From Paraflavisolibacter caeni (lineage in GTDB: Bacteria; Bacteroidota; Bacteroidia; Chitinophagales; Chitinophagaceae): DNA of 64,000 nucleotides. The DNA lies in NCBI RefSeq assembly GCF_025628885.1, contig NZ_JAOTIF010000030.1, positions 1-64,000 on the forward strand, given 5' to 3'. The position numbers and the translations under genes are program-made. Shown piece by piece: positions 2,248 through 63,025 of the stretch. Under the pieces are notes generated by a model. That model saw only the letters and a list, made by a program, of their open reading frames with translations. It did not search any database and had not been told where the DNA came from. Position 1 is the stretch's first letter, and each line of letters opens with the position of its first letter.

Positions 2248-2251
2248 GTGT

Positions 2252-4068: not shown

Positions 4069-4159
4069 AATGATTTTCGTTTAAGGCTTAGAATCCGATC
4101 AGCAAAAGCTTTTAATATTTATTATAACATTTTACAGGATTGAAATTGATGATGCCCGT

Positions 4160-5605: not shown

Positions 5606-5617
5606 AATTTTTCGCTT

Positions 5618-7939: not shown

Positions 7940-8054
7940 AAGCAAGAATCATACACATTAAAGCAAGCAAAAGTCTAAAAATAGGAAAAGCCTTATTTAC
8001 AATCAATTGACAATCCTAAGATTTTGATGGATTATCCTATGGTGTATGGATGGG

Positions 8055-11119: not shown

Positions 11120-11159
11120 GAACATCAATCTATAATTTTTAACCATGATGAGATTGGGA

Positions 11160-13286: not shown

Positions 13287-13293
13287 AAAGAGG

Positions 13294-14994: not shown

Positions 14995-15004
14995 AAGTAA
15001 TTCA

Positions 15005-28855: not shown

Positions 28856-31468
28856 CTACTTTATCATCAAGGTCCCCCAGCTCACTTTGGATACACCTTC
28901 AAGCTTAACAGCAGGTTGTCCCCCTCCAACGCTGATCAGCAAAGCTCCTGCTGGCTGGTACATTTCCCCCTTGTCATTTACAAGTGACAGTTGCTCCGGA
29001 GTCAATACAAAGCGGATTTTGCGAGATTCGCCCTTTTTCAAGGCAATTCGCTGGAATCCTTTCAAGGCTCTAATAGGAGCTTTTCCTTTTGCATTCAGGT
29101 AAGCGATATACAACTGTACCACTTCTTCTCCGTCCCTATTTCCAGAATTTTTAACTTCAGTTTCTACTGTAATAGAAGATCCCCTCGTTGCTATTTTTGG
29201 CATCCTGAGTGGAGCGTAGTTGAAGGAAGTGTAACTCAAGCCATATCCAAAAGGATATAATACAGCGCCCTTAAAATAGCGGTAGGTATGGCCCTGCATG
29301 TTATAATCTTTAAAACCGGGCAGGCCTTCATCACTCTTATAGAATGTTACAGGCAAACGACCAGCAGGATTATAATCACCAAACAGCACATCGGCTACAG
29401 CGGTTCCCCCGCTTTGTCCACCATACCATGCATTTAAGATGGCTGGTATATTTTCCTGTTCCCAAGGAGTAGCAATGGCACTTCCCGTAAGCATGACAAA
29501 CACAACCGGCTTGCCCGTAGCTTTTAATTGTTTCAGCAATTCAGTTTGAACAGAAGGTAACATAACAGTAGTACGGTCTCCACCATCAAAGCCCTGCACA
29601 TTCACCGGCATTTGCTCGCCTTCCAATTCAGGAGAAATACCACCCACAAAAACTATCACATCTGCATTAGCAGCCCTATTTGCAATAGAACCTAAATCGG
29701 CTTTCTGATAAGTACCTTTTTGCATGCGTATCCTGGCGGCATCTTCATTTTGCCAGTATTCCAACACCATTTTATAGGTTTTACCTTTTTGGGCTTTCCA
29801 TTTAAAAGTCCGTATTCCTGGCTGGGCGTTCCAATCTTTCAGCACCAAGCTATCATTCATAAATATCCTATATCCTTCATCACCCTCCATTTGCCAGGTA
29901 TAAGTGGAATCCTTAGCGGAAGTAAAACTTGTAGCAAAGCGGATCGAAAAATGACGGGAATTTACACCTGGGGCAGGAAGTTGTCCTTCGGGATAGATAA
30001 AGTTGATATCTGATACAACAGTTTGATAGACCGGAGCACCTTCCAAATTCTCATTATTGAAGTAAGATGCCTGTATGCCTTGTTTGTTGTTGTATGAATA
30101 AAATGCGGCATCATTGTCGGGCGTAAAAAGAATATCGCTGGCATAGTTAACACCAGGTTCATAAATGATCTCTGTTTGAGCACCAACTTTATCCCTTATT
30201 CCATCGAGCACAGAAACAATACGTGAAGGGAAACCGTTGTAATTGCCCAGCATAGCCAATCTATTGTCGGCATTAGGCCCTACCACCGCAATACGTTTCA
30301 AGTTCTTGCTGAGTGGTAATAATTGGTTTTGGTTTTTCAACAACACTATAGACTGTTGCGCCAGCTTCAATGCATGCTCTTTGTGCTCTGGCGCTTCCAG
30401 CGTACTTGCAGGCACCTGTGCATATTTGACTTTCGAAGGAGCATCAAACATTCCCAAACGGTAACGTATGGTAAATAATCGACTCAGTGATACATTCAAT
30501 TGTGTTTCACTGATAATTCCTCTCTTCACCGCATCAACCAGAGATCTGTAAACCGAAGTTCCACATTCCACATCGGTGCCATGAAATACTGCATCGGCAG
30601 CAGCAGAAGCGACATCCTTGTGCGTCTTATGGTTTTTTACGAAATCATCGATTGCCCAGCAATCACTTGTCACATAGCCTGTAAATTTCCATTGATTCCG
30701 TAAAATATCATTCATCAGCAAATCGTTGGCACAGCAGGGTTGCGAGTTGAGTGCGTTGTAAGCGCACATGACTCCAGCGACCTTTGCATTCACTACCAAT
30801 TCTTTGAAAGCCGGCAAATAAGTATCCCACAAATCATAAGTATCGGGATTAATGTTATCTGTATGCCGTGTAGGTTCCGGGCCGCTGTGTACAGCATAAT
30901 GTTTGGCACAGGCTGCGGCCAGTAAATAGGTTGGATCATCACCCTGCAAGCCTCTTACAAACGCAGCACCCAACTTGGCTGTCAGGAAAGGATCTTCACC
31001 GTAAGTTTCCTGCCCCCTGCCCCAACGTGGATCACGAAAGATGTTGATATTAGGCGTCCAGTAGGTAAGACCTTTGTAACGGTCTTTGGTTTTACCTTCT
31101 GCCACAGCCAAATTATTGATCGCCCTTCCTTCCAAACCGGAATAGCGAGCCATTAATTTCAGCGAACTGGTATCCCAGGTAGCAGCCATACCAATGGCCT
31201 GGGGGTAGACCGTTGTTTTGTAGGGAGTGCGGGCCACCCCGTGCAATATTTCATTCCACCATTCATAAGCTGGTATACCCAAACGAGGAATTGCTGGTGC
31301 CGCGTTCAGCATTTGTCCTACTTTTTCTTCCAGTGTGAGCCTGCTCACCAGGTCATTGACACGCTGTTCCATGGGCAAAGCCTCATTCCACATTGGATAT
31401 TGTTTGAAATCCTGGGCGTGCAGCAGCGTACTAAAGCAGGTAATCATTACACATAATAACTTCCTCAT
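28856..31468 (-). CDS. GH3 beta-glycosidase with PA14 insert, beta-xylosidase/arabinofuranosidase-type
   Basis: First gene of the long operon, about 870 aa. The ATG at 31468 starts the signal peptide (RKLLCVMITCFSTLLHAQ); an ATG at 31489 adds seven residues. The GH3 N-domain has AYEWWNEILHGVA, DPRWGRGQETYGEDPFL and AKHYAVHSG. VAGVMCAYNALNSQPCCAND and the nucleophile Asp in GYVTSDCWAID (near 267) are typical of the xylosidase/arabinofuranosidase branch of GH3. A PA14 domain sits inside the C-domain (about 464-610, GIQASYFNNENLEG), and a FN3-like domain closes the protein. The promoter region (31531-31650) is a near copy of the one before the pentose-oxidation operon, which supports pentose release as its job; arabinose versus xylose cannot be decided. 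Confidence 0.88.
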   Translation of the reverse strand: MRKLLCVMITCFSTLLHAQDFKQYPMWNEALPMEQRVNDLVSRLTLEEKVGQMLNAAPAIPRLGIPAYEWWNEILHGVARTPYKTTVYPQAIGMAATWDTSSLKLMARYSGLEGRAINNLAVAEGKTKDRYKGLTYWTPNINIFRDPRWGRGQETYGEDPFLTAKLGAAFVRGLQGDDPTYLLAAACAKHYAVHSGPEPTRHTDNINPDTYDLWDTYLPAFKELVVNAKVAGVMCAYNALNSQPCCANDLLMNDILRNQWKFTGYVTSDCWAIDDFVKNHKTHKDVASAAADAVFHGTDVECGTSVYRSLVDAVKRGIISETQLNVSLSRLFTIRYRLGMFDAPSKVKYAQVPASTLEAPEHKEHALKLAQQSIVLLKNQNQLLPLSKNLKRIAVVGPNADNRLAMLGNYNGFPSRIVSVLDGIRDKVGAQTEIIYEPGVNYASDILFTPDNDAAFYSYNNKQGIQASYFNNENLEGAPVYQTVVSDINFIYPEGQLPAPGVNSRHFSIRFATSFTSAKDSTYTWQMEGDEGYRIFMNDSLVLKDWNAQPGIRTFKWKAQKGKTYKMVLEYWQNEDAARIRMQKGTYQKADLGSIANRAANADVIVFVGGISPELEGEQMPVNVQGFDGGDRTTVMLPSVQTELLKQLKATGKPVVFVMLTGSAIATPWEQENIPAILNAWYGGQSGGTAVADVLFGDYNPAGRLPVTFYKSDEGLPGFKDYNMQGHTYRYFKGAVLYPFGYGLSYTSFNYAPLRMPKIATRGSSITVETEVKNSGNRDGEEVVQLYIAYLNAKGKAPIRALKGFQRIALKKGESRKIRFVLTPEQLSLVNDKGEMYQPAGALLISVGGGQPAVKLEGVSKVSWGTLMIK

Positions 31469-31530
31469 ATCAGCAATTTGATCTGTCATATTAATTTTAA
31501 TTGAGATGACAAAATGATAAAAAAGTCATC

Positions 31531-31695: not shown

Positions 31696-32994
31696 TTAAA
31701 AAGCCATTTCTACTACATAATCCATTTCATCTGGCTTTTTATCCAGCACCAACAGCACTCCATCTTTGCTTTGCGTAAACCTCACCGGCTTTTTATCAAT
31801 AAAAACTTTGGCCGATTTTATTTTTTTATCTGTTATCGGAAGAAACAGCGCCTGATCCTGCAAATCGAGTATGTGTATAAACAGGCGGTTCTCCTTCTGC
31901 GTGGTAACGCCCCATTTGTGCTGACTAACCATGCCGCCGCGGGTATCGTAAATAGTTTCGCCATATTGATTTAGCCAGTCGCCCATTGCTTTATAACGCT
32001 GCACGGCAATATCGGGGAATGTGCCGTTGGGTCTTGGTCCTACATTCAGCAATAGATTGGCATTGTTACCCGCTGCTTTTACTAAATATTGCACCAGTTC
32101 TTTTTCAGACTTGTACTTATTATCGGTGATGTTATAACCCCATGATGTATTCATGGTTTCGCAGGTTTCCAATGGCAACGCTCCTATTTCCGCATCTTTA
32201 GAGAAACCCGATGTATTGTAGCCGGGCAGGTCCCTTTCAAATGGTTGTGCATCTTCTCCTTCAATGGGAGCCAAATGATGGTTATTCAAAATCAGGCACC
32301 CTGGCTGAAGCGAATGGATCAGCGAATAAATCTCATCAAATTTCCAGTTAAAATCTTTTGGTTTATCCCATTTGCCATCAAACCAGATAGCGCCTATCTC
32401 ACCATAATTAGTCAGCAACTCACGAAGCTGGTTCAGCATAAATTGATGATAGGTTTCCCATTTTGCTTTCCTGGTTTCTTCGGTTTTGGTAATAAAAGCG
32501 CCATTGGGATTATAATCAGGCCTTCCCCAATCCAACAGTGAGTAATAAAAATGCAATTTGATGCCTTGTTTATGGCATTCATCTGCCAGTTCTTTCAGCA
32601 CATCCCGTTTGAAGGGCGCAGCCTTCATAATACTATAATCGGAATATTTTGTATCAAACATGGAAAAGCCATCGTGGTGGCGGGAGGTGATGCAGATATA
32701 TTTAGCGCCTGCAGCTTTAATATTGGCCACCCATTCCGCAGCATTGAATTTTGATGGATAGAAACCTCCGGCTAATTTGCTGTATTCATTGTAATTAATT
32801 TTTTTAATATTCATCACCCATTCTCCATCAGCCATCATGCTGTAAATGCCCCAGTGGATGAATACACCGAATTTATTGTCTTGAAAAATTGCCCTGTTTT
32901 TTAAGTTTTCAGGGGTTGGCGAATACCCTTTTTGGGCGAATGCTACAGAAGATAGTACGAATAATACTACGATAAAAAAGGCTTTTTTATTCAT
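31696..32994 (-). CDS. GH29 alpha-L-fucosidase
   Basis: Retaining exo-alpha-L-fucosidase of 432 aa, secreted (signal peptide KKAFFIVVLFVLSSVAFAQ). Family signatures are FGVFIHWGIYSMM near 44, YICITSRHHDGFSMFDTKYSDY near 95-115 and the nucleophile Asp in IGAIWFDGKWDK near 204. NANLLLNVGPRPNGTF near 315 and a short beta domain complete the fold. It is short because it lacks extra CBM-like domains. It is the last gene of the pentose-oxidation operon, 57 bp after the mutarotase, so a sugar-releasing enzyme is transcribed together with the catabolic genes. Fucose itself is not the expected substrate of that pathway. Confidence 0.93.
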   Translation of the reverse strand: MNKKAFFIVVLFVLSSVAFAQKGYSPTPENLKNRAIFQDNKFGVFIHWGIYSMMADGEWVMNIKKINYNEYSKLAGGFYPSKFNAAEWVANIKAAGAKYICITSRHHDGFSMFDTKYSDYSIMKAAPFKRDVLKELADECHKQGIKLHFYYSLLDWGRPDYNPNGAFITKTEETRKAKWETYHQFMLNQLRELLTNYGEIGAIWFDGKWDKPKDFNWKFDEIYSLIHSLQPGCLILNNHHLAPIEGEDAQPFERDLPGYNTSGFSKDAEIGALPLETCETMNTSWGYNITDNKYKSEKELVQYLVKAAGNNANLLLNVGPRPNGTFPDIAVQRYKAMGDWLNQYGETIYDTRGGMVSQHKWGVTTQKENRLFIHILDLQDQALFLPITDKKIKSAKVFIDKKPVRFTQSKDGVLLVLDKKPDEMDYVVEMAF

Positions 32995-33051
32995 TATCTA
33001 TGATTTCAAATAAATTATCAATCGAATGAAAGTACTTTTTAATTGCCGTCA

Positions 33052-34125
33052 TTAAAAATGGGCGGCGCTGGCGAAGGGAATATTTTGAAATTGAAAAATG
33101 GTGGTTGTTTTATACAATTCACCGGGACGTAAAATCACATTGGGAAAATGAGCATGGTTGGGAGCATCGGGGAAAGCCTGTGTTTCCAATGCAATGCTGC
33201 TATGCTGCTGATAGGCTTTTCCCTGCTGGCCGGTCAGCGTACCATCCCACCAGTTTGCCGTGTACAGATGAACGCCGGGGCTGTTTGTATAAACTTTTAA
33301 CACCCGCCCGGATGGAGGATCTGACAGCGCTGCAGCGCAAACCAAATTTCCGTCTTGTGTGTTCAATACAAAATCATGGTCATACCCTTTATCTTCTGCA
33401 AGCTGCCCGATATGATCTCCGATACTTTTGGGAGTTATAAAATCAAAAACCGTATGCTTCACCGGGGCGATCTCTCCCGAAGGGATGTTATTTGAATTTT
33501 TAACAAGATAGTTGTCAGCAAAAATCTGCAACTGGTGATTATAAATGGTTTCATCTTCAAAACCGGAAAGATTAAAATAAGTGTGATTGGTAAGATTCAC
33601 AATTGTAGGCATATCCGTTCCGGCAAAGAAGGAAATACAAAGTCCATTATTATCCAGTAAATATTTCACCGTTACTTCCAGGTTTCCCGGATAACCTTCT
33701 TCCCCATCCTTACTCAAACAAAATAACTCGACACCAACTTTATCGTTTTCGTTGATGATCGTTTTTATATCCCAAAGTTTTCTGTGAAAACCTCCCTGTC
33801 CTCCATGCAGGTGATTCACTCCGTCGTTAATTGGTAATTGATACTCTTTACCGTCAAGATGAAATTTTCCATATGCAATGCGGTTGGCAAATCTGCCAAC
33901 GGTACAGCCGAGGTAAGGATGGTTGTTGAGATAAGGCTGAAGCGAGGAAAATCCGGCAACAATATTTTTTTTGTTCCCAGAAACGTCAGGCGAGTCAATA
34001 GAAACAATCGTTGCACCGTAATTGGTAATGGCCACATCAACAATGCCATTGCTCATATTGATAAGCGAGGCATTTCCTTCATTCGTGTTTCCAAAATCTA
34101 TAACGTCAATACTAAATTCAAGCAT
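33052..34125 (-). CDS. galM: Aldose 1-epimerase (mutarotase)
   Basis: Interconverts alpha and beta anomers of free aldoses, providing the anomer used by the pathway dehydrogenase. A 357-aa GalM-like beta-sandwich: NYGATIVSIDSPD near 30, YLGCTVGRFANRIAYGKFHLDG near 70-90 (Arg in the GR-ANRI motif), LPINDGVNHLHGGQGGFHRKLW near 97-115 (substrate His) and TNHTYFNLSG near 175 (catalytic His). GYDHDFVLN near 245 holds the Asp. No signal peptide is seen, so cytoplasmic. It starts 12 bp after the FAH-family gene. The Glu-containing motif near the end (SIALETQAFPDAPNHAHFP, about 305-323) matches the family catalytic Glu. All main residues are present. Confidence 0.93.
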   Translation of the reverse strand: MLEFSIDVIDFGNTNEGNASLINMSNGIVDVAITNYGATIVSIDSPDVSGNKKNIVAGFSSLQPYLNNHPYLGCTVGRFANRIAYGKFHLDGKEYQLPINDGVNHLHGGQGGFHRKLWDIKTIINENDKVGVELFCLSKDGEEGYPGNLEVTVKYLLDNNGLCISFFAGTDMPTIVNLTNHTYFNLSGFEDETIYNHQLQIFADNYLVKNSNNIPSGEIAPVKHTVFDFITPKSIGDHIGQLAEDKGYDHDFVLNTQDGNLVCAAALSDPPSGRVLKVYTNSPGVHLYTANWWDGTLTGQQGKAYQQHSSIALETQAFPDAPNHAHFPNVILRPGELYKTTTIFQFQNIPFASAAHF

Positions 34126-34137
34126 GAGTAAAGAATA

Positions 34138-35337
34138 TTAAAGCTTGTTTCTTTTTATAAGAAAATCAATAAACGAATGAATACCAAACTCCCACCTGGG
34201 AATCTGATCGCAAGTATTTACCCAATTAATTAATTGACCCAGCTTTTCAGATGCTATGATTACCTGGTCGCCGATTTTATGCGTAAAGCCTTTTCCATCT
34301 GCATCACGATTTTCGGTTGGGGCGAACATGGTTCCCAGAAAAAGGACCAATCCGTCGGGGTATTGGTGATTTTTGCCAATAACCTGTGCTGTTAAATTCT
34401 CGGGCGACCTGCTTATTTCATTCATTTTGTTTGCCCCGGAAGAACTAAACCCGTCTTCTCCTGTAATCGTGAGTTCAACTTCGCAATTTTTCACATCGTC
34501 GATAGAAAAGGTTTTATCAAACAATCTAAACAAGGGCCCTATTGAACAGGAGCCATTTTGATCTTTGGCCTCTCCAAGCAACAAAGCGCTGCGCCCTTCA
34601 TAATCTCTCAGGTTCACATCGTTTCCTAAAGTGGCACCTACAATTTTTCCCTTTGAAGAAATAGCCAACACTATTTCCGGCTCAGGATTATTCCACACTG
34701 AATCCTTTAGAACGCCCACTTGTGCACCAAATCCTACCGCAGACATAGGCTGGCTTTTAGTAAAGACTTCTGCATCTTTGCCTATTCCCACCTCAAGATA
34801 TTGCGACCAGATACCTTCTTCCTGGAACCGTTTTTTTAATATTTCTGTTTCAGGTGAGCCGGGAACAGTTTTACTTAAATCATTTCCCAGTGTTTCATAA
34901 ATAGTTTGTCGAACCTGGTCTGCTTTTTTTGCATTCCCCCTCGCCTTTTCTTCAATAACCCGTTCCAATAAGCTTTTTACAAAAGTTACACCGCAGGCTT
35001 TTACCGATTGTAAATCGTTGGGAGCAATGAAGCAGGGCAACGAGTTGTCCCGATTGGAGAAAAGGGAATTTTTAAGAATGTCCTTTAATTCACCGATCAC
35101 AGGTAGCGCATCAAGTTGTATCATCATTTCGGCAACGTTATCTGTATTGATCAATTCACTGGTGGAATTAAAATGTGCAGACAGGTCGTAAACTTTTCCG
35201 TTGGCTACTTTTACAACATGGGGACCGGCAATTCCATTATATGCCAGTGCTGCAGGCACCATACATCTGCCAATCCATGTTCCTTCGCTGGCCTGATTGG
35301 GAATGATTTGGTTTATATCTATTGTTTCCTGTTTCAT
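34138..35337 (-). CDS. FAH-superfamily 2-keto-3-deoxypentonate dehydratase (XylX-like)
   Basis: Predicted to dehydrate 2-keto-3-deoxy-pentonate to alpha-ketoglutarate semialdehyde. A 399-aa protein with an N-terminal domain (GTWIGRCMVPAALAYNG) and an FAH-fold C-domain. CGVTFVKSLLERVIEEKARG, GIWSQYLEVGIGKDAEVFTK, VWNNPEPEIVLAISSKGKIVG, GNDVNLRDYEGRSALLLGEA and FVLFLGTMFAPT-type segments match what I recall of XylX/KdpD pentose-pathway dehydratases, including length. The Glu pair in PEPE and Asp in GNDVNLRD are the usual metal ligands of the fold. It is 37 bp after the alpha-ketoglutarate semialdehyde dehydrogenase, its expected partner. An acylpyruvase-type hydrolase of another sugar-acid route is the main alternative. 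Confidence 0.82.
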   Translation of the reverse strand: MKQETIDINQIIPNQASEGTWIGRCMVPAALAYNGIAGPHVVKVANGKVYDLSAHFNSTSELINTDNVAEMMIQLDALPVIGELKDILKNSLFSNRDNSLPCFIAPNDLQSVKACGVTFVKSLLERVIEEKARGNAKKADQVRQTIYETLGNDLSKTVPGSPETEILKKRFQEEGIWSQYLEVGIGKDAEVFTKSQPMSAVGFGAQVGVLKDSVWNNPEPEIVLAISSKGKIVGATLGNDVNLRDYEGRSALLLGEAKDQNGSCSIGPLFRLFDKTFSIDDVKNCEVELTITGEDGFSSSGANKMNEISRSPENLTAQVIGKNHQYPDGLVLFLGTMFAPTENRDADGKGFTHKIGDQVIIASEKLGQLINWVNTCDQIPRWEFGIHSFIDFLIKRNKL

Positions 35338-35374
35338 CTTTCGTATTTATAATTTCAGTTACAAGGTGTTCAGT

Positions 35375-36931
35375 TTATATTTTGGAAGTAGAATATTTAC
35401 CGTTCACTAAACGCATGATGCCTCTTGGGTTTTCATTTTTCAAACCTTCGGGAAGATGTCCCTGGGGAGCATTCTGGTAACTCACCACTTTGCAGAACCG
35501 TTTGATGGCAGCCGTTCCAACAGAAGTGGCGGCAGCAAAGGTGGATGATGGATAAGGGCCGCCGTGATGCATGGACGGACATACTTCTACTCCTGTAGGG
35601 AAGCCATTGTAAATTATGCGCCCCACTTTTTCTTCAAGAATTGATTTTAGTTTTTCGGCTTCCTCATCATTGTCTGTATGGATGGTGCCTGTTAAATGGC
35701 CACCCAACTGACTGGCAGCTTTTGTCATTTCATCCATATCCTTACATTCGATGATTAAAGCCGCCGGGCCAAATACTTCTTCTTCCAATTCAGGATTCTT
35801 TATAAAATCTGTTGCACTTACGGTAAATAAATATCCACCTCCGACAGTGTTTCCTGTGAGCTTTAACAGTTCACTTTTATTGCTATACGCAGTTAATTTT
35901 TGCTGTAAGCCTGTTTTGATATTAGCATTCAGCAAAACGGCATCGGGAATCTGTTCAAGCGCTGCAACAAGCTTACCCTTGAAGGCTTCCGTATCTGCTG
36001 ATGTGAGCATAAATACAAGGCCTGGCTTTGTGCAAAACTGGCCAGTTCCGAGCGTTATGGAACCAGCAAGTCCGTTGGCTATTTCGGATGTCCTGTTCTT
36101 GACGGCATTGGCTAATATAAATAAGGGATTGGCGCTGCCCATCTCGGCAAATACAGGTATTGGTTTGGGCCGGGATGAAGCCTGATCAAAAAGCGTTCTG
36201 CCTACGTGGGTGCTACCGGTAAATCCTACCGCTTCTATTTTTGGATGTTTTACCAGTTCGTTGCTTACCAACGGGTCTGCACCCTGCAACAAACTAAACA
36301 CAGCCTTTGGAAAATTATTTTTTTCTATTGCTTTTTCGATAGCCCTTGCACACAACTCCGATGTAGCGGGGTGGCTGGGATGACCTTTTACAATTACGGG
36401 ATTACCCGCAGCCAATGCCGATGCCGTATCGCCACCCAAAGTAGAAAATGCCAAAGGAAAATTGGAGGCAGAGAAAACAGCTACCGGCCCGATGGGCGCA
36501 AGAATACTTCGTATATCGGGCCTGGGCAAAGGCTTACGGTCGGGTATAGCCGTATCAATACTTGCCTGTTGCCAGCTCCCTTCCCTTATCAATGAGGCGA
36601 AAGCCCTTAACTGCCCGCAGGTCCTGGCCCGTTCTCCGGTTAATCGTGGAATTCCTAATCCTGTCTCCTGGTTACAAACTTCTAATAGTTCATCGCCCAA
36701 TGCTTCCACTTCTGAAGCAACATCTTCTATAAATGCAGCCCGCTTATCAAAATCAAGAGCTTTAAATACCAGATAAGCTTCCGAAGCAGCGTTTACTGCC
36801 CTGTCTACCTGAGATGAATTTACACCCCGGTAATCGTTAAGTTTTGATCCATCCAAAGGACTAAAGGAAGTAAAAGAACTTCCCTGTCCTTCTTCCCAGT
36901 TTCCAGCAATTAAACTTTTTCCCGATACCAT
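35375..36931 (-). CDS. Alpha-ketoglutarate semialdehyde dehydrogenase (type III-like)
   Basis: Final step of the pathway: alpha-ketoglutarate semialdehyde to alpha-ketoglutarate with NAD(P). About 518 aa from the ATG at 36931 (MVSGKSLIAGNW); the frame runs five codons further to a TTG. Family-specific segments are PVAVFSASNFPLAFSTLGGD near 155, GNPVIVKGHPSHPATSELC near 180, VGFTGSTHVGRTLFDQA near 235, catalytic Glu in FAEMGSANPLFI near 260 and nucleophile Cys in GTGQFCTKPG near 301. The SNFPLAFS and GHPSHP motifs are typical of KGSADH type III and not of lactaldehyde or betaine aldehyde dehydrogenases. A 122-bp gap separates it from the SMP-30 gene upstream. Confidence 0.88.
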   Translation of the reverse strand: MVSGKSLIAGNWEEGQGSSFTSFSPLDGSKLNDYRGVNSSQVDRAVNAASEAYLVFKALDFDKRAAFIEDVASEVEALGDELLEVCNQETGLGIPRLTGERARTCGQLRAFASLIREGSWQQASIDTAIPDRKPLPRPDIRSILAPIGPVAVFSASNFPLAFSTLGGDTASALAAGNPVIVKGHPSHPATSELCARAIEKAIEKNNFPKAVFSLLQGADPLVSNELVKHPKIEAVGFTGSTHVGRTLFDQASSRPKPIPVFAEMGSANPLFILANAVKNRTSEIANGLAGSITLGTGQFCTKPGLVFMLTSADTEAFKGKLVAALEQIPDAVLLNANIKTGLQQKLTAYSNKSELLKLTGNTVGGGYLFTVSATDFIKNPELEEEVFGPAALIIECKDMDEMTKAASQLGGHLTGTIHTDNDEEAEKLKSILEEKVGRIIYNGFPTGVEVCPSMHHGGPYPSSTFAAATSVGTAAIKRFCKVVSYQNAPQGHLPEGLKNENPRGIMRLVNGKYSTSKI

Positions 36932-37053
36932 ATTTTTATTTATCAATTTTTAAATTTTCATGTGTTAATTTTTATTTCTTTTTGGTCACATGGAATTCAC
37001 CATAAAAATTTTCATCGCAGTTAGTATGAATTTGCTCGAAATTTTTTTATGGC

Positions 37054-37932
37054 TCATTTCATTTTATAAGGCAACACTCCTTTAAAAGGAAGTTTTGCTT
37101 TGAATAAAGAACCTGAGAGCGGATATTTTTCAAGTGCTTCTTCATCCATTAAATAATTGGCAGTAGTAATGTACAACTCGTCTAAATTTTCTCCGCCAAA
37201 TGCGCAGGAGGTTACTTTAGGAACCGGCAAACAAACTTCAAATACAGTTTCTCCGGTTTGGGGATTAATTCTTATCACTTTGCCACCATCAAACAAGGCC
37301 ACCCATAAATAATCATCGCTATCAATGGTCATTCCATCGGGCAAACCAGTTTCTTTTTCTATTGTTGCGATGACCTTTTTGTTTTGAATAGCACCCGTAT
37401 CGATGTCATAATCATACTGGTGAATTTCATAAGTGAGTGAATCAATAAAATAAAACTTTTTACAATCACTATTCCAGGCCAGGCCGTTAGAAATGGTAGT
37501 GCCTTCTATCTTTACTTCAATAGCGCCTTTTGAATCAAATTCATACAACCTGCCTGCACCGTTCGTACAATCATAAGCCATAGTGCCCGCCCAAAAAGTG
37601 CCCCTGGGGTCGCATTTACCATCGTTGAAGCGGATTTCAGGATGATCTTTTTCCGGCTTTGCTCCTTCCGATATTTCACCGGTATCAGGATTAAGATATC
37701 CTATTCCATTTTCATCGGCATAGGCCCAAAGCCCGGAGTCGGTGAGCACAATGGTACCAACATCCTGCCCAATATCATAACTGGTGTTAGAACCATTTTG
37801 GGGATTGAATGCATAAATTTTATGCGCCAGGATATCCACCCACAGCAGGCGCTGATTCGCTGCATCCCATATACTTCCTTCCCCCACTATTGCCGGAATT
37901 GAATAGACCGGTTCAGCTGTAACTCTATCCAT
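37054..37932 (-). CDS. SMP-30/gluconolactonase family sugar lactonase
   Basis: Predicted to open the pentono-1,4-lactone (or related aldonolactone) made by the SDR. A 292-aa cytoplasmic six-bladed propeller: GEGSIWDAANQRLLWVDI near 17 (metal Glu), RFNDGKCDPRGTFWAGTM near 100 (Asn and Asp of the family NDGK motif), GTTISNGLAWNSDCKKFYF near 145 (Asn metal ligand) and LPDGMTIDSDDYLWVALFDGG near 195 (Asp metal ligand and catalytic base). All four divalent-metal ligand positions are visible. It starts 27 bp after the dehydratase gene. Substrate stereochemistry cannot be read from the sequence. Confidence 0.92.
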   Translation of the reverse strand: MDRVTAEPVYSIPAIVGEGSIWDAANQRLLWVDILAHKIYAFNPQNGSNTSYDIGQDVGTIVLTDSGLWAYADENGIGYLNPDTGEISEGAKPEKDHPEIRFNDGKCDPRGTFWAGTMAYDCTNGAGRLYEFDSKGAIEVKIEGTTISNGLAWNSDCKKFYFIDSLTYEIHQYDYDIDTGAIQNKKVIATIEKETGLPDGMTIDSDDYLWVALFDGGKVIRINPQTGETVFEVCLPVPKVTSCAFGGENLDELYITTANYLMDEEALEKYPLSGSLFKAKLPFKGVLPYKMK

Positions 37933-37959
37933 TTTTATTGATTTATGTAGTTTGATTTT

Positions 37960-39129
37960 TTACCAGTCTAAAATGGCATTGTCTTCATCTCTAATGGTAT
38001 TGGAATGTATTATTTCCTGTTTAAACGGATGTTTCTTTGCCTCTGCCTCATTGATTTCAATTCCCAATCCGGGTTTCACAGGAACAGCCCAATAACCATT
38101 TTTTGAAGTGATTTCCGTTTCAACTACATCCCATCGCCAGGGAACATCCGTTAACATATCTTCCTGGATCAAAAAATTGGGTGTTGAAAGCGCAAAATGC
38201 AAGGCTACAGCATTGGCTACCGGCCCCAGCGGATTGTGCGGCGCTACTCCCATATTATATACTTCCGCCATCGCTGCAATTTTTTTTGCGGCCCAAAGCC
38301 CTCCACAATGGCAGAGGTCGGGCTGAATGACATGCACAGCATTCTTTTCAAATATCTCTTTGTACTGATAGATAGAAATATGTCTTTCTCCCGTAGCAAT
38401 CGGAACCTTGGTTCTGTCTGTTACCATTTTAATCGAATCAATATTTTCTGGCCGCACAGGTTCCTCACAAAAGAAGGGATGATACTCTTCAATAGCGTTA
38501 ATATACTGGATAGCCATTGCAGGAGTGGTTCTTCCATGAAAATCCACCATGATATCAATATCGGGTCCAACAGCTTCTCGCAGCTTTCCAAACATGTGTG
38601 CAAACTGTTTCACCTTTTTCGTCCCTTCAATCGTTTTTGAATACGGAACAAAAACCACTTTCAATGCAGAGTAGCCTTTGTTGATGACGCTTTTAGCATA
38701 TTCGATCAGGGGTTCCACAGCAAAGGTTTCATAAACCGCTTTCATGTCGCCACCACCTAAATGGGTGTACATTCTAACCCGGTCCCTGACTTTGCCTCCC
38801 AGGAGTTCAAAAACCGGAACATTGAGGTCTTTCCCCTTAATGTCCCACAGCGCCTGTTCAATAGCGGAAATCGCCGACATTCCAATGGCGCCCATTGCCC
38901 AGAAAGATTGCCGGTACATTTTCTGGTAAAGGTGTTCGATATTCCGGGGATCTTCACCCACAATCATGGGCTCAAAATCTTCCAATGCACCCACTACCGC
39001 CCTGGTTTTCCATTCAAGCGATCCTTCGCCCCATCCAAAAAGTCCTGGCTGATCGGTTTCAACTTTTACAAAAACCCAGTTTCGCATTTCTGCGTTAACC
39101 ACCAGTGTTTTTAATCCTGTAATTTTCAT
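37960..39129 (-). CDS. Enolase-superfamily aldonate dehydratase (galactonate dehydratase-like)
   Basis: Predicted to dehydrate an aldonate to its 2-keto-3-deoxy acid. About 389 aa from the ATG at 39129 (MKITGLKTLVV), 14 bp past the SDR stop; an ATG at 39171 would overlap it. N-terminal capping domain with FGWGEGSLEWKTRAV, ALWDIKGKDLNVPVFELLGG near 95-115. Barrel metal ligands: Asp in DFHGRT near 194, Glu in CEEPVRP near 221, Glu in ATGERH near 245; a likely catalytic His in APHNPLGP near 294. This pattern resembles D-galactonate dehydratases (DgoD). In context the substrate is more likely a pentonate, since archaeal xylonate dehydratases also belong to this superfamily. Confidence 0.88.
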   Translation of the reverse strand: MKITGLKTLVVNAEMRNWVFVKVETDQPGLFGWGEGSLEWKTRAVVGALEDFEPMIVGEDPRNIEHLYQKMYRQSFWAMGAIGMSAISAIEQALWDIKGKDLNVPVFELLGGKVRDRVRMYTHLGGGDMKAVYETFAVEPLIEYAKSVINKGYSALKVVFVPYSKTIEGTKKVKQFAHMFGKLREAVGPDIDIMVDFHGRTTPAMAIQYINAIEEYHPFFCEEPVRPENIDSIKMVTDRTKVPIATGERHISIYQYKEIFEKNAVHVIQPDLCHCGGLWAAKKIAAMAEVYNMGVAPHNPLGPVANAVALHFALSTPNFLIQEDMLTDVPWRWDVVETEITSKNGYWAVPVKPGLGIEINEAEAKKHPFKQEIIHSNTIRDEDNAILDW

Positions 39130-39143
39130 CTCTATTGTAAATT

Positions 39144-39929
39144 TTATTTTGGCTGAGTACCTTGAACGCAATAACCGCCATCGCAGCGAATGTCTGTAGC
39201 CGTAATATTCATGGATTCATCGCTTGCGAGGAATACGAACACATTTGCGACCTCCTCTATGGAAGCTATTTTTCCTCTTGGGTGAATGCGGTTAAACTCG
39301 TTGAGCGCCTGCTCCGGATTCGTTGCGTTTTGCTGGATAAACCGGTGAAGCATGGTTGAATCCACTGTTCCGGGAGACACCGTGTTTACACGAATATTGT
39401 ATTTCGCCAATTCCATTGCATGCCCGCGGGCCAGCGACATTAATCCGCCTTTTGTGGCTCCGTAAATGGCTACATCCGGAAAGCCATTATGACCTGTAAC
39501 GCTTGACATGTGTATAATTGAACCACTCTCTCCCTTCTTCATATAAGGCAACACTTCCCGGCTGAATAATATAGGAGCCCTCAGATTCACACTTAACACT
39601 TCATCAATTGTTTTAGACGAAAGGGTTTCCAACGACGAACCAGGCATTACGGCAGCGTTGTTGATCAATACATTGATGCCACCCATGTAAGCAGAAGATT
39701 CGCGGACAAAGTCAACAATCTCCTGTTCGTTTCGTATATCAACAATTTTACTGAACACCTCTGTTCCAAGACTCTTCAATTGAAGAGCGGTTTCTTCAAG
39801 GGCTTTCCCATTAATATCACAGATGGCCAGTTTTGCACCGTGCAGTCCCATTGCTTTTGCAATACCTCTGCCGATGCCTTCTCCGGCGCCTGTTACAATT
39901 GTTTTTTTATTCAACAGTCTTTTCATCAT
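39144..39929 (-). CDS. Short-chain dehydrogenase, putative aldose 1-dehydrogenase
   Basis: Classical SDR of about 261 aa. The start is ATG at 39929 or 39926 (MMKRLLNKKTIVTG); a TTG lies two codons upstream. It has a Rossmann TGAGEGIG near 14-21, Asp in AICDIN for NAD preference near 38, NNAAVM near 91, catalytic Ser in HMSSVTG near 143 and YGATKGG near 157 (Tyr and Lys). In this operon it should oxidise the aldose to its lactone, the first step. SDRs of this kind also serve as 2-keto-3-deoxy-acid dehydrogenases in L-fucose pathways, which is the main alternative. It is the first gene of the operon, 75 bp after regulatory repeat copy B. Confidence 0.85.
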   Translation of the reverse strand: MMKRLLNKKTIVTGAGEGIGRGIAKAMGLHGAKLAICDINGKALEETALQLKSLGTEVFSKIVDIRNEQEIVDFVRESSAYMGGINVLINNAAVMPGSSLETLSSKTIDEVLSVNLRAPILFSREVLPYMKKGESGSIIHMSSVTGHNGFPDVAIYGATKGGLMSLARGHAMELAKYNIRVNTVSPGTVDSTMLHRFIQQNATNPEQALNEFNRIHPRGKIASIEEVANVFVFLASDESMNITATDIRCDGGYCVQGTQPK

Positions 39930-40004
39930 ATGCAAGCTTGTAAATATTAATTCAATTTCCCCTGGGGGTTTACGCTTTCAAGGTAAGGTTTGAAAGGGTA
40001 AGTT

Positions 40005-40246: not shown

Positions 40247-42889
40247 CTATTCTTTGGTATTATCTTTTATGGCGTATCCCATCCCGGATTTTTTGAAAGC
40301 CTGTTCTTTTCCATCCAATGATTTGCCATTAATTTTTTCTCCCTTACCTATCACAGACACCACCAACTCCAGTTTCACTTTATCATTTGCATTGTGCAAA
40401 GCCTGCACTGATATATTGGATTGTCCCTTTTCAATTGAAAGAGGCTTAGTCACTTTAATTTCTTCCAACTTATTCCTGTTTTTATCTGCTATATACAGGC
40501 TATTGTTTTTATACATAATGAATTGGCCAGAGGATAACTTCTTATCAACAACCAGTTCCTCTCCTTTATCCAATTTGATGCGTATACCATCAGCAATAAC
40601 ATCCTTTGCTCCCTGCACCCTGATCGCCAATTCAAGAGGCTGTGCTTCAAATTCATTTTGCAATACCAATGGTTGTGCCCCAGGAAGGTATTCCAGGTTA
40701 CGGAAACGGTTTTCTTTAACAGTAAACAAGGTAAAAGAACGTTCTCCATTATGCTCCAGGTGAAATTTGTAATTAAGATCTTTCAGCTTTTCCTTATGCG
40801 CTTTGCTAAACAGTTGTAAGGCCCTTGCATTTTCCCAAGTGCGGTAGGATTTAAAGATGGCAGCTTTTTCTGCACTATTTTCTACTGCCTGCTGGCTGAG
40901 TCCGAGCATATAGGTAGCATTCCAACCTATTGATTTAGCTTGTAAATTTTCTGCATCATAAACGCTCCAGTCTCCACTGTAATTCTGAATGCCAAAGGTT
41001 GCCGGAAAATAACTGCTTTCCCAAGCATAACGAATGTCTTTACCCTCTATACCCCATTTATTAAGCACAGGACTAAACATGTGGTCGCCGCCGCCTACGT
41101 TGCATACACTCATATAATGCCAACTGCCTTCACCAATAGCACTACCCATCACCCGCAGGTATTTTCCACCATTGCGATGATAACTGTCGAACAGGCCACG
41201 GAAGAAGCGTTTGAATGAATACTGGCCATGTCCCTGGTACAAACAGCTTTCCAATCCATCAAAGTCTATATAGTCCATTCCTCCTTCAGTAAGCCAGCGG
41301 CCATAATAATCGGCATATACCTCCTGCAGGTTCATATCCGGTGCAAACCCGTGGTAACAGTTCGGCTGCAATTTTACGATTGTAGTTCCGGCTGGGTAGT
41401 TGCCACGTGTTGTGCCGTGAAAACCGCGTTTTACATTTAAGAAAGTATAAGGTTTGGTCCTGGTAATCCCATTGTATTCTATCAATTCCTTTCCAATTTT
41501 CAACACATTGGTATGATTGCCTTCCCATCCGCCAAATTCATTGAAATAACTGGTGTCTGCTACGGTAATGATGGTATCCGATGCAGAAAGGTTCTTCGTA
41601 ATAGTGGTTCTCAGCATAATAGCTAAGCTATCGCTTGGCACCGGGGAAACATCACTGTTGTTATTTGGTTGCAGGAATTCGCATAAGGTATGTAAACCAT
41701 ATTGAATACCATTCTTTTTCATCAGGGCTCCATATTCAGGAATGCTCATGGAAGATCCTCCGTTCAAACTGATTTTCCTTTTGCCCCAACGGTTGGCAGG
41801 ATTAGGATAATACTCTCCCCAGCCCTCATCCTGAACAGATTTTAGTCCAAGCTGATTAGCATAGCTAGCCAAGCTGTCGTGTGTGCCCCACCAGGCAATA
41901 TCAGGTCTGAAAGCAGCCGGGTCTTTTATCCATTTACCGTCTGTTTTAATATGTGGCAGTCCTTCCTTTATTACAATTTTTTCTATCGTATTTAACCCCA
42001 GAGAATCGGGGCAGGCATAAAAGGCAATGGCAGATCCTATAAAATCGGCATTTACAGGCGATACCAGTTGGTAGCGTGGCGCATTTGCTTTTGGATCAAC
42101 GCCTTCCGGATAAACAGGGAAGCGGATCATCCGCTCTTTTTTCCGGTCTCTCGAATGCATGCAGATGCTTGAGCCAAAAGCAGGCTCCAATAAAGCGCCG
42201 TTTCCATAATTCATCCTGAAATATTCCTCTGGCTGTGAATAAAAAGCCACATCGTTGATACCATCACCTCCAATAGGGAATGTCTGCCCTTCCTTCAGAT
42301 GTTGTGGCAGCGGATACTTTTTAGGATCCGGGGAGTGAATATAATAATATGCGGAACTTTCGGTGGGCGGCCCACTGATTGTATTGTCGTTCAGACCCAA
42401 AATACCAATAGCAAAATCCTCGCTACGCACCACCGAAATAATTTCACCTATAGTTTTGGAAATATTGGTTTTGTAAGGACCCCACACGATATTTTCCACA
42501 CCGTTTCTCGGGGCCAATGACAATAACTGAAACCGCAGGTAGTTTTGGTTCTGATCGATTTTTATTTTAGCAACAGACCCATTGGTATAAGTGATTACAA
42601 CTTCCTTTTGGGCAATATTGAAGATTGCTTTTGAGGGCAGGATATATTGCTTGTCATTATGAAGGCTCATCAAGGCTGAAGCCATTCCTTTGGGGCAATA
42701 TTCCTTCCCCGTTTTTTTCTCTTTGATAGAAGTAATATATCCTTTGCCATTCACACTGATCCTGGCATATTGTGTTTGCAATTGAAATGATTGAGCTTTA
42801 AGGCTGCTCGTAAACAGCAACAGAAAACCCATACTCAAAACAAAAGCAAAGAAATGATTAGAAAAATGCTTTATGATACTATTTTTCAT
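40247..42889 (-). CDS. Secreted TIM-barrel glycosidase-like protein with an inserted beta domain (family unassigned)
   Basis: An 880-aa protein with a signal peptide (NHFFAFVLSMGFLLLFTSSLKAQ). Layout: N-terminal beta sandwich (30-320), a barrel region starting RPDIAWWGTHDSL near 335 with GLKSVQDEGWGEYYP, GIQYGLHTLCEFLQPN, MDYIDFDGLESCLYQG near 535-550 and GKYLRVMGSAIGEGSW, then a beta C-terminus. Asp residues of IDFDG sit where GH-D/GH31-like barrels have a catalytic acid. A segment near 440-510 (VLKIGKELIEYNGI.., FLNVKRGFHGTTRGNYPAGT) looks like a separate module inserted in the barrel, similar to short IG.E.I.Y..RG..GT repeats seen in other surface proteins. I recognise no GH family. It is the second gene of the operon headed by GH36. 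Confidence 0.55.
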   Translation of the reverse strand: MKNSIIKHFSNHFFAFVLSMGFLLLFTSSLKAQSFQLQTQYARISVNGKGYITSIKEKKTGKEYCPKGMASALMSLHNDKQYILPSKAIFNIAQKEVVITYTNGSVAKIKIDQNQNYLRFQLLSLAPRNGVENIVWGPYKTNISKTIGEIISVVRSEDFAIGILGLNDNTISGPPTESSAYYYIHSPDPKKYPLPQHLKEGQTFPIGGDGINDVAFYSQPEEYFRMNYGNGALLEPAFGSSICMHSRDRKKERMIRFPVYPEGVDPKANAPRYQLVSPVNADFIGSAIAFYACPDSLGLNTIEKIVIKEGLPHIKTDGKWIKDPAAFRPDIAWWGTHDSLASYANQLGLKSVQDEGWGEYYPNPANRWGKRKISLNGGSSMSIPEYGALMKKNGIQYGLHTLCEFLQPNNNSDVSPVPSDSLAIMLRTTITKNLSASDTIITVADTSYFNEFGGWEGNHTNVLKIGKELIEYNGITRTKPYTFLNVKRGFHGTTRGNYPAGTTIVKLQPNCYHGFAPDMNLQEVYADYYGRWLTEGGMDYIDFDGLESCLYQGHGQYSFKRFFRGLFDSYHRNGGKYLRVMGSAIGEGSWHYMSVCNVGGGDHMFSPVLNKWGIEGKDIRYAWESSYFPATFGIQNYSGDWSVYDAENLQAKSIGWNATYMLGLSQQAVENSAEKAAIFKSYRTWENARALQLFSKAHKEKLKDLNYKFHLEHNGERSFTLFTVKENRFRNLEYLPGAQPLVLQNEFEAQPLELAIRVQGAKDVIADGIRIKLDKGEELVVDKKLSSGQFIMYKNNSLYIADKNRNKLEEIKVTKPLSIEKGQSNISVQALHNANDKVKLELVVSVIGKGEKINGKSLDGKEQAFKKSGMGYAIKDNTKE

Positions 42890-45941: not shown

Positions 45942-48284
45942 TTAAGGTTGTTGGTTAGGCTCAAATTCTACAGTCTCTTTGCATTGAATATCTTCTGCCG
46001 ACTTAGCGAACATGAATTCAAATTCTCCGGGTTCGGTTACAAACTGCATTTCCGAATTCCATAAACCAAGTTCCTTGTAAGATAAGTTAAAGGTTACCCG
46101 TTTGCTTTCGCCCGGATGCAATTCAATTTTTTCAAAACGTTTTAGGGCCATTACCGGAGTAGTAACTGAACTCACTTTATCACGGATATACAACTGAACA
46201 ACTTCCTTCCCGGTTCTGCCACCTGTATTTTTAACATTTACAAATACTTGAATATCTTCTTTTCCAAACTTCTTTTTAGAAACACTCATGTCAGAATATT
46301 GAAAACTTGTATAGGATAATCCGTATCCGAAAGGGAATAATGCCGCTGGTGAAGAAAAGACGTAATCACGCCCAGGCTTTTCGGGAGTGCCTGGCTGATG
46401 GTAGTACCCCTTTGAGGAGGGTTTGTAATTGTAAACAACAGGTATATGTCCAACAGTTTGAGGAAAAGTGGCATTTAATCTACCTGAGGGATTTACCTTT
46501 CCAAACAAGATATTTGCGATGGCATTTCCGCCCTGTTCTCCCGGGTACCATGCCTCTACAATTGCTGGAATATTTTCCTTTTCCCATTTTATGCTCCAGG
46601 GACGACCATGAATCAGAATCAAAACAATAGGTTTTCCTGTCCTAGCAATTGCCTGGATCAATTCGCGTTGCACTCCCGTAGGATTGATATCACTTACATC
46701 GTACCCTTCACCATTTGTAAATGGCTCGTGGCTTTCTTCCTTACCCGGACCATTTCCCCAACCAAGACCTGATAAAATTGCACTCGTTTCGCCTAACACA
46801 ACTACAGCAACATCGCTCTTTTCAACAGCCGCAATTGCTTCTTCAAATCCATCTTTATTCAACGATGAAATTCCACAGCCTTTGGCATAGTTCACTTGAG
46901 TATTCTTTCCAACAAGATTTTTTATTCCCTCCAAAACTGTAACCCCTGAACTATTATCACGAGTATAGCTATAATCACCGTATTGAACTTGATTGGCATT
47001 TGGCCCAACAACAGCAATACTTTTAAGCTTAGTTTGATCTAGAGGAAGTAAGTTATTTTCATTTTTTAGTAAAATGATTGATTCTTCAGCAATCTCTTTG
47101 GCAAGATTCACGGCTTCAGCTGTATGTTTCACTTTTGCCAATTGCGTACCATCGGCATATTTCTTTTCAAATAAACCGGCCTTAAACTTAACAGTCAAAA
47201 TTCGACGAACTGTTTGATCAATTATCTCCTCTGGTAACTTACCATCTTTAACCAGTTGTACCAAAGTTTGATAAGCCTCAGGATTAGGAGCTTCCAAGTC
47301 AACTCCCGCATGAATGGCCTGCAGTGCTGCCTCCTGCTTATCCCGTGCAATATGGTGAAAATAGTTCAACATGGAAACTCCTCCATAATCAGAGAATACA
47401 TATCCATTAAAGCCCCACTCTTTTCTCAAAACTTTGTTTAATAAAAAGCTATTGGCATGGGCAGGCGTACCATCCATTTCATTATATGAAGGCATGATGG
47501 AATAAATATTAGCCTCTTTAACAGCCATTTCAAAAGGAAGAAGATAAAAAGTACGAAGTTCTCGTTCGCCGACTGCTGTAGGGGCAAGATTAATACCAGC
47601 AACCGGTGCACTATACGCTGCAAAATGCTTAGCGGTACACATGATTTTACCTTTAGGAATGCCATTTATAGTAAGATCAACATCACCTTGCATCCCTATA
47701 ACGAAAGCCGACCCGATCTTACCTACTAAATAAGGATCCTCACCATAACATTCCTCATTGCGACCATATCTTGGATCTCTAATCAGGTCAAATAAAGGAG
47801 AAAGCGCCTGATCAACACCGGCCGCACTTGCTTCTGTTGCAATTGTGCCTGCCATACGTTTTATCAAAGCAGGGTTCCAGGTGCTCCCTTGTGCAATTGC
47901 CTGTGGGAAAATAGTAGCGCCGTAGGCCAACACGCCATGCAGGCACTCAGCAATCTGAATGGGTGGAATGCCTAACCGTGTATTTTCGAAAGCATGCTTC
48001 TTGGCCGCTGCTGATTGCTTTGCAATAGTATCCAAGCTTACGAACGGGCTTTCACATACTCCATAAACATTTGGTGTTTTGCTAAAATTAATCAAGCTGG
48101 TCATTCCTAGTTGCTGTACTTTCTCTTCTAAAGTCATCCGCTTCAACAAATCATTAACTCTATCTTCTATTGAAGCTTTGGGATTAGATTGATTTTTCTT
48201 AAGAAAAACCTGACAGATAGCTATATTCATCTCCGCTGATAAGAATATAAGAGCAAGGAAAAATAATGCTGATTTTGTCTTCAT
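45942..48284 (-). CDS. GH3 beta-glucosidase-type enzyme
   Basis: Secreted 780-aa GH3 enzyme (signal peptide ALFFLALIFLSAEMNIAICQ). The N-domain has MTLEEKVQQLGM, LGIPPIQIAECLHGV, DPRYGRNEECYGEDPYLVG and AKHFAAYSAP. The nucleophile Asp lies in GYVFSDYGGVSML near 307. The C-domain has ILLKNENNLLPLD and VAVVVLGETSAILSGLG, and an FN3-like domain ends in SYKELGLWN. There is no PA14 insert, unlike the GH3 at 28856-31468, and the SDYGGV loop places it nearer beta-glucosidase/beta-xylosidase broad branches. Substrate is uncertain. It follows the GH95-like gene by 90 bp, with no clear promoter or terminator between, and precedes the gene remnant. Confidence 0.9.
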   Translation of the reverse strand: MKTKSALFFLALIFLSAEMNIAICQVFLKKNQSNPKASIEDRVNDLLKRMTLEEKVQQLGMTSLINFSKTPNVYGVCESPFVSLDTIAKQSAAAKKHAFENTRLGIPPIQIAECLHGVLAYGATIFPQAIAQGSTWNPALIKRMAGTIATEASAAGVDQALSPLFDLIRDPRYGRNEECYGEDPYLVGKIGSAFVIGMQGDVDLTINGIPKGKIMCTAKHFAAYSAPVAGINLAPTAVGERELRTFYLLPFEMAVKEANIYSIMPSYNEMDGTPAHANSFLLNKVLRKEWGFNGYVFSDYGGVSMLNYFHHIARDKQEAALQAIHAGVDLEAPNPEAYQTLVQLVKDGKLPEEIIDQTVRRILTVKFKAGLFEKKYADGTQLAKVKHTAEAVNLAKEIAEESIILLKNENNLLPLDQTKLKSIAVVGPNANQVQYGDYSYTRDNSSGVTVLEGIKNLVGKNTQVNYAKGCGISSLNKDGFEEAIAAVEKSDVAVVVLGETSAILSGLGWGNGPGKEESHEPFTNGEGYDVSDINPTGVQRELIQAIARTGKPIVLILIHGRPWSIKWEKENIPAIVEAWYPGEQGGNAIANILFGKVNPSGRLNATFPQTVGHIPVVYNYKPSSKGYYHQPGTPEKPGRDYVFSSPAALFPFGYGLSYTSFQYSDMSVSKKKFGKEDIQVFVNVKNTGGRTGKEVVQLYIRDKVSSVTTPVMALKRFEKIELHPGESKRVTFNLSYKELGLWNSEMQFVTEPGEFEFMFAKSAEDIQCKETVEFEPNQQP

Positions 48285-53634: not shown

Positions 53635-53655
53635 TAGTTTAATTAAATAAGGCTC

Positions 53656-63017: not shown

Positions 63018-63025
63018 CTCCTGTT

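Follow-up and report, generated by a model that had tools for sequence, protein, structure and literature searches.

Which sugar does a compact run of oxidative genes consume when it lies inside a bacterial glycan locus, and by what route? We address this question for 64,000 nucleotides of Paraflavisolibacter caeni DNA (NZ_JAOTIF010000030.1, positions 1 to 64,000; hereafter the window), contig C24 in a genome assembled as 89 contigs (7.01 Mb). Seven open reading frames (ORFs) on the minus strand, between 31696 and 39935, encode in transcription order a short-chain dehydrogenase/reductase (SDR), an enolase-superfamily dehydratase, an SMP-30 protein, an aldehyde dehydrogenase (ALDH), an FAH protein, the mutarotase GalM and a glycoside hydrolase family 29 (GH29) fucosidase; their Pfam domains are, in the same order, adh_short, MR_MLE (N and C), SGL, Aldedh, FAA_hydrolase, Aldose_epim and Alpha_L_fucos. 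Our comparisons suggest, with a probability of about 0.68, that this run is a non-phosphorylative Route II (Weimberg-type) pentose pathway with D-xylose as the favored sugar. An earlier note on this DNA had named the five enzyme classes of that route, namely aldose dehydrogenase, lactonase, aldonate dehydratase, 2-keto-3-deoxypentonate (KDP) dehydratase and alpha-ketoglutaric semialdehyde dehydrogenase (KGSADH), and by protein family all five are indeed present. The assignment is well supported at the family level, and strongly so at the FAH step.

In the proposed scheme, GalM would act on a free aldopentose by interconverting its anomers. The SDR would then oxidize the sugar to a lactone, and the SMP-30 protein would open the lactone to a pentonate. 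The enolase-superfamily protein, which is GalD-like, would dehydrate the pentonate to KDP, the XylX-type FAH protein would take a second water from KDP to give alpha-ketoglutaric semialdehyde, and the ALDH would turn this product into alpha-ketoglutarate. The ORF and Pfam data agree with the tight minus-strand arrangement described earlier for the first six genes. As listed, the ORFs are separated by 12 bp (GalM–FAH), 37 bp (FAH–ALDH), 107 bp (ALDH–SMP-30) and 27 bp (SMP-30–enolase), and the enolase and SDR ORFs overlap by 28 bp. With the likely ATG starts (36931 for the ALDH, 39129 for the enolase), the ALDH–SMP-30 gap becomes 122 bp and the overlap becomes a 14-bp gap, so the genes lie roughly 12–122 bp apart and may be co-transcribed. 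The run end given previously, 39929, coincides with the earliest ATG in frame within the SDR ORF, and 311 bp separate the SDR from the next upstream gene. The fucosidase had been called fused to the pathway genes, but it has a gene of its own, which lies 57 bp downstream of GalM. By its GC content, the run does not stand out as foreign (0.40–0.45 inside, 0.37–0.48 around it).

The FAH protein provides the strongest evidence for a Weimberg-type pathway. Just two PDB sequences matched it at E ≤ 0.01 by phmmer, 9kkt (4.3e-109) and the Sulfolobus enzyme 2q18 (3.9e-20). With an AlphaFold2 model built from a 21-sequence alignment (pLDDT 87.2), the four best Foldseek matches were chains of 9kkv and 9kkt, at 46–48% identity and query TM scores of 0.84–0.88; identity to the Sulfolobus enzyme was 20–21% over the fold alignment. 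The entry title of 9kkv/9kkt, truncated at '...2-keto-3-deoxy-D-xylo', points to a 2-keto-3-deoxy-D-xylonate dehydratase, and our literature search found no paper naming 9KKT. The protein thus groups with a 2-keto-3-deoxy-D-xylonate dehydratase by both sequence and fold. It also keeps a Glu/Lys dyad (E190/K258) and metal ligands (E219, E221 and D240), which align with those that sections of PMC9795676 describe for the Sulfolobus enzyme. A Route III hydrolase identity appears unlikely, since the dehydratase residue Glu190 is present here and missing from the hydrolase-type protein of a Bacteroidia relative, G499.

A second line of evidence comes from Herbaspirillum huttiense, as the window protein is 52% identical over 393 aa to the FAH protein of a locus in strain NFYY 53159 (L016). 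That protein carries Glu182; the locus also encodes a GguC-like protein with Glu138 (in the numbering of one of several possible starts) and, next to the FAH protein, a UxaA-like protein with eight cysteines, including 134, 173, 208 and 276. Excerpts of PMC6336799 report C785_RS13680 as a measured D-KDP dehydratase, with kcat/Km 34-fold higher for D-KDP than for L-KDP, and the Glu182 of this enzyme, the cysteines of C785_RS13685 and the Glu138 of the L-KDP-preferring C785_RS13710 match the L016 proteins. Since the strain is not IAM 15032, the tie to the C785 genes is a match by residues and gene order. Characterized D-KDP dehydratases (D-KdpDs) are FAH-family proteins that favor D-KDP (PMC7374468). 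The earlier description of the protein as XylX-like is therefore borne out by sequence, residues and fold.

The neighboring ALDH has 3v4c and 1eyy as its best PDB matches and carries the catalytic Cys and Glu in the motifs GQFC and AEMG. The ALDH adjoining the FAH gene in locus L004 shares 72% identity with it; among the matches listed, the best NCBIfam KGSADH model for the window protein scored 126, versus a cut-off of 770. The earlier label, KGSADH type III-like, is tentative, and a literature search yielded no type III sequence. Together, the FAH and ALDH proteins point to Route II. Their adjacency is not a chance event: with 13 Aldedh matches and at least eight FAH-type genes in the genome (seven from a PF01557 search plus the window gene, which that search overlooked, so that the count is a lower bound), about 0.04 adjacent pairs would be expected by a crude estimate that assumes ~5,845 genes, and two were found, in the window and on contig C2.

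The upstream classes are consistent with the same chemistry. The SMP-30 protein matched regucalcin (1.3e-55), then a luciferin-regenerating enzyme, then 7plb, a 'Smp-30/Cgr1 family protein' (1.7e-38) that we take to be the Caulobacter xylonolactonase. TGxxxGIG and YxxxK motifs are present in the SDR, which exceeded no NCBIfam cut-off among the best 25 of 233 matches. GalM passed NCBIfam PRK11055 (301, cut-off 240) and fell below galM_Leloir (331, cut-off 398).

The enolase-superfamily dehydratase bears on the identity of the sugar. It is 37.6% identical to E. coli DgoD and conserves all six catalytic and metal-binding DgoD positions tested (D183, H185, E209, E235, D258 and H285). Its active site has no second Lys of the KxK motif and does have the His/Asp dyad. 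At the second-strand lysine, the window, G499 and Bosea proteins read KVVF and also have an NPLG motif in common; the corresponding residues are KxN in the DgoD clade and KSMA in seven relatives from the order. In a 19-row tree with 9 of 16 inner branches open, the window protein falls outside a 100/100 clade composed of the E. coli, Haloferax and Enterococcus proteins. Thus, the earlier doubt about the substrate was well placed, and the phylogeny against DgoD proposed there puts the protein outside the DgoD clade. Its proposed substrate is a pentonate. The FAH step argues for the D series. The active site of the enolase, in turn, fits a configuration at C2/C3 that D-xylonate has in common with L-arabinonate and D-galactonate. 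Taken together, these two indications favor D-xylose, which is the most likely single candidate.

Several results weigh against this reading, and the enolase itself provides the first. It passes the NCBIfam galactonate dehydratase model PRK14017 (371, cut-off 311), and it would be a true galactonate dehydratase if the run served D-galactonate or another hexonate, with the FAH and ALDH proteins acting on hypothetical C6 intermediates. Galactose could be freed by GLAA-B-domain and Melibiase-like gene products in the locus (the latter at 20.7 bits, below the cut-off of 27), and the Haloferax and Enterococcus relatives adjoin 2-keto-3-deoxygalactonate kinase and aldolase genes. However, those relatives belong to the separate DgoD clade, with KxN rather than the KxV of the window protein, and no such kinase or aldolase is found among the seven genes (no aldolase of any kind by Pfam). 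Only from a pentonate would the ALDH receive an aldehyde; a dehydrated 2-keto-3-deoxyhexonate would offer none. We therefore regard a hexonate route as improbable. The earlier label, galactonate-dehydratase-like rather than IlvD-type, holds for the family model, but not for a place within the DgoD clade.

Phylogeny adds a second difficulty. The proteins from Bosea, Palleronia, Skermanella and G499 fall in a 97/99 group (five proteins besides the window's), with the window protein at an unresolved fork. These and the order relatives, at ~49–54% identity, are the closest found, and their neighborhoods are diverse: TRAP transporters adjoin the Bosea and Palleronia genes, and a dihydrodipicolinate-synthase-family gene adjoins that of Skermanella. 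Within the order, 7 of 298 genomes besides P. caeni carry a relative, with a second copy in one (G047) and a more distant copy in another locus (L108); the neighborhoods described next are those of the seven, these two extra copies being left out. Six of the seven (L101–L104, L106, L107) place the gene in a set with a class III aminotransferase, an SDR, a ceramidase-like protein and a symporter-like protein (the aminotransferase and ceramidase-like genes of L101 assigned by Pfam, the others by similarity or by eye); the seventh (G293) has it beside an SMP-30 protein and two SDRs. In the eight loci L101–L108, neither a KGSADH-like ALDH nor an FAH protein of any of the four types used as queries was found, and these loci lend the pentose reading no support.

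The closest parallel is the run in G499 (L110), which complicates the choice of sugar. It comprises an SMP-30 protein (30% identical to that of the window), an ALDH (43%), a GH20-like ORF assigned by eye, an enolase (52%), a sugar porter, a GguC/AraD1-family FAH protein (NF040903, 437.7 versus 340; 43% identical to the L016 GguC) and an SDR, followed by a hydrolase-type FAH protein and another SDR. Its enolase falls narrowly under the PRK14017 cut-off (309.6 versus 311). By analogy, this run may be the same core with an L-series FAH protein; the enolase may instead serve the nearby fucose-type genes. That a GguC protein of L-KDP type stands in place of the XylX type counts against D-xylose and raises a variant of Route II in which L-arabinose is consumed via L-arabinonate and L-KDP. 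D-galactonate and L-arabinonate are alike at C2–C4, which would suit a GalD-like enzyme, and the pairing in G499 joins a related enolase to a relative of the L016 GguC whose Glu138 matches that of C785_RS13710. Nevertheless, the window FAH protein is of XylX and not GguC type, the genome has araBDA, and an IlvD protein on contig C2 is a better L-arabinonate candidate, so that L-arabinose appears an unlikely substrate of this run. A broader and tentative idea unites both cases: the window enzyme, with those of G499 and Bosea and perhaps Palleronia and Skermanella, could form a bacterial aldopentonate dehydratase subfamily, indifferent to C4, that replaces IlvD/EDD in Weimberg pathways of Bacteroidota glycan loci and acts on D-xylose beside an XylX-type FAH protein and on L-arabinose beside a GguC type.

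Gene distribution bears on the D-xylose pathway in both directions. The FAH gene is rare: at E ≤ 1e-60 it occurs in 1 of 298 order genomes (P. caeni itself) and in 2 of 395 phylum genomes (P. caeni and G467). We compared 81 FAH loci, the best 80 of a wider contig scan plus one (L084) from the phylum search. None has a close enolase homologue within 6 kb of the FAH gene, and eight have one at 23–32% identity; the FAH–enolase pairing thus rests on the window and the partial analogue in G499. In favor of the pathway, 14 of the 81 have an IlvD dehydratase within 6 kb; several of the loci are truncated by contig ends. In an 83-row tree (the 80 loci, L085 in place of L084, and the window and C2 proteins), the window protein joins L085, L004 and L005 (100/99), and this Bacteroidota clade is joined by Pelagicoccus, then by L007 and L008. 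On the one hand, the gene of the nearest relative, L085 (73%), stands by itself, and that of L004 is accompanied by an ALDH gene alone; on the other, and in support of the pathway, L007 has IlvD, SMP-30, SDR, FAH and ALDH genes in succession, with ORFs resembling UxuA, UxaC and RraA, by eye, alongside. Also against the reading, the SDR is remote from all SDRs of the compared loci (31–32% identity to its six best matches). A Bacteroidetes promoter pattern has no site in the run, but this pattern is uninformative, with two sites in the window where 4.4 would be expected by chance.

The genome also offers other outlets for the same pentoses, and these too count against the run as the usual route. 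It has xylA with an adjacent xylulokinase-like gene (XylB model 301 bits, below 380), and araA, araB and araD. With phosphorylative genes for xylose and arabinose present, the run would be an additional or conditional outlet. A cluster on contig C2 (L003, C2:46000-65999, local 8581-15592) encodes an IlvD protein (859.8 for an L-arabinonate dehydratase model with a cut-off of 882), a KGSADH-like ALDH, a 278-aa FAH protein with the dehydratase residues, an MFS protein and an enolase with a Tat-like leader by eye; around it lie GH3-like ORFs and a pair of RraA-like ORFs, of which one was checked by Pfam. The earlier proposal that xylose or arabinose goes straight to alpha-ketoglutarate is partly supported: the enzymes encoded fit it, and as an account of how the cell uses these sugars it stays a hypothesis.

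Fucose deserves separate consideration, given the GH29 gene in the run, the GH95-domain genes in the locus and the absence of any PF07881 fucose isomerase match in the genome. A Route III operon for L-fucose would account for these, but the FAH protein has the dehydratase Glu190, the run has one SDR and not two, and the enolase has KxV instead of the KxK of L-fuconate dehydratases. Moreover, contig C1 (L125) encodes FucP (383.9 > 280.4), a UxaA/GarD-type dehydratase that is a candidate L-fuconate dehydratase, SDRs and a hydrolase-type FAH protein (370.7, below 500), and contig C12 (L124) encodes a fuconolactonase-like protein (271.9, below 400), a hydrolase-type FAH protein and SDRs. Fucose probably leaves through these separate Route III loci, and it is very improbable that the run serves it. 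The pairing with GH29, once called unusual, has a parallel in G499, but one on the other strand, converging, ending ~120 bp from the SMP-30 gene end and 26% identical.

It is useful to contrast the Weimberg-type run with known systems. Caulobacter xylXABCD has the same XylX-type FAH, SDR, SMP-30 lactonase and ALDH classes and the same predicted products; the run differs in that none of its seven genes encodes an IlvD/EDD dehydratase, whose place a GalD-like enolase takes, and in its setting, a glycan locus of Bacteroidota where GalM and GH29 accompany it. The L-fuconate dehydratase and the L-lyxonate route of Pseudomonas aeruginosa, whose dehydratase reportedly belongs to the enolase family, likewise involve bacterial enolase-superfamily dehydration of sugar acids, with another C2/C3 configuration; we liken them by description only. 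That bacterial enolase-type L-fuconate dehydratase accepts D-arabinonate, according to extracts of PMC6336799. In H. huttiense cluster 1 (D-arabinose/KDP), a FAH D-KDP dehydratase is in common, but a UxaA/GarD-type dehydratase makes the D-KDP. The archaeal Route II of Haloferax and Sulfolobus combines an enolase-superfamily pentonate dehydratase with a FAH-type KDP dehydratase (PMC9795676, in part), whereas the window has the long XylX type of FAH protein and an SDR as dehydrogenase. Oxidation of DEHU (4-deoxy-L-erythro-5-hexoseulose uronate) by Flavobacterium (FlDet/FlDeg) is a Bacteroidota route that also ends in alpha-ketoglutaric semialdehyde and alpha-ketoglutarate, but, as parts of PMC8563752 relate, its substrate comes from alginate and it uses an RraA-family dehydratase/decarboxylase and a type II KGSADH. 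The nearest published cases found are this route and a KGSADH from a 'Bacteroidetes bacterium' tested in yeast (PMC11775059, in part); none of the matches listed in the open-licence literature described a Weimberg pathway in Bacteroidota.

The somewhat unusual feature is an enolase-type enzyme where bacterial Weimberg pathways usually have an iron-sulfur dehydratase, in a variant of a known pathway. Passages of PMC9795676 report the Caulobacter IlvD/EDD xylonate dehydratase, which has an iron-sulfur cluster, as rate-limiting in engineered Weimberg/Dahms pathways, and, among archaea, describe aldopentonate dehydratases of the enolase type that lack a crystal structure. An enzyme of this type that a bacterium already encodes next to XylX-type and ALDH genes would offer a replacement for IlvD/EDD that can be put to the test.

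Genes of the proposed pentose pathway and nearby GH3 genes, with window coordinates
Feature	Coordinates	Strand	Basis
SDR oxidoreductase, proposed aldose 1-dehydrogenase	39144..39935	-	adh_short/adh_short_C2; likely start 39929 or 39926
Enolase-superfamily (GalD-like) sugar-acid dehydratase, proposed pentonate dehydratase	37960..39129	-	MR_MLE N+C, PRK14017
SMP-30/gluconolactonase-family protein, proposed pentonolactonase	37054..37932	-	SGL 279.7 bits
ALDH, proposed alpha-ketoglutaric semialdehyde dehydrogenase	35375..36946	-	Aldedh; likely start 36931
XylX-type FAH protein, proposed 2-keto-3-deoxy-D-pentonate dehydratase	34138..35337	-	FAA_hydrolase 30.3 bits (cut-off 23.9); 9kkt/9kkv
GalM-type aldose mutarotase	33052..34125	-	Aldose_epim 281.6 bits
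GH29 alpha-L-fucosidase, last gene of run, outside pentose chemistry	31696..32994	-	Alpha_L_fucos 354 bits
GH3 protein with PA14, possible pentose-releasing enzyme	28856..31489	-	Glyco_hydro_3 N/C, PA14
Second GH3 protein, beta-xylosidase-like	45942..48284	-	Best PDB 7zb3, 8c7f (beta-xylosidase, xylosidase), then 5yot isoprimeverose-producing enzyme

The run is part of a larger glycan locus, likewise on the minus strand, that encodes SusC-like and SusD proteins (51898-57063) as well as FecR and a factor of the sigma-70 family, presumably of extracytoplasmic function (ECF) type; proteins of the locus carry GH20, GH43, GH92, GH95, GH3 and GLAA-B domains. The window fucosidase matched 9eu1/9eu4 (1.6e-186). 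The GH3 protein next to the run had 3u48 ('JMB19063') as its top PDB match, with several beta-xylosidases and beta-glucosidases also among the matches; the pentose might come from the glycan itself. Adjoining this GH3 gene, positions 26443-28818 encode a 791-aa protein for which neither Pfam (E ≤ 1e-5) nor the PDB sequences gave a match. The 880-aa protein immediately upstream of the run (40247-42889), which matched nothing in Pfam, NCBIfam (E ≤ 0.001) or the PDB sequences, is perhaps an undescribed glycoside hydrolase. At 61956-63724, a UxuA-like protein lies beside a member of the RraA family, which includes the Flavobacterium dehydratase/decarboxylase that yields alpha-ketoglutaric semialdehyde (PMC8563752). 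Finally, one end of the window (100-7945) encodes DUF1501, PSD1/PSCyt2 and PSCyt1 proteins, which have planctomycete-type domains.

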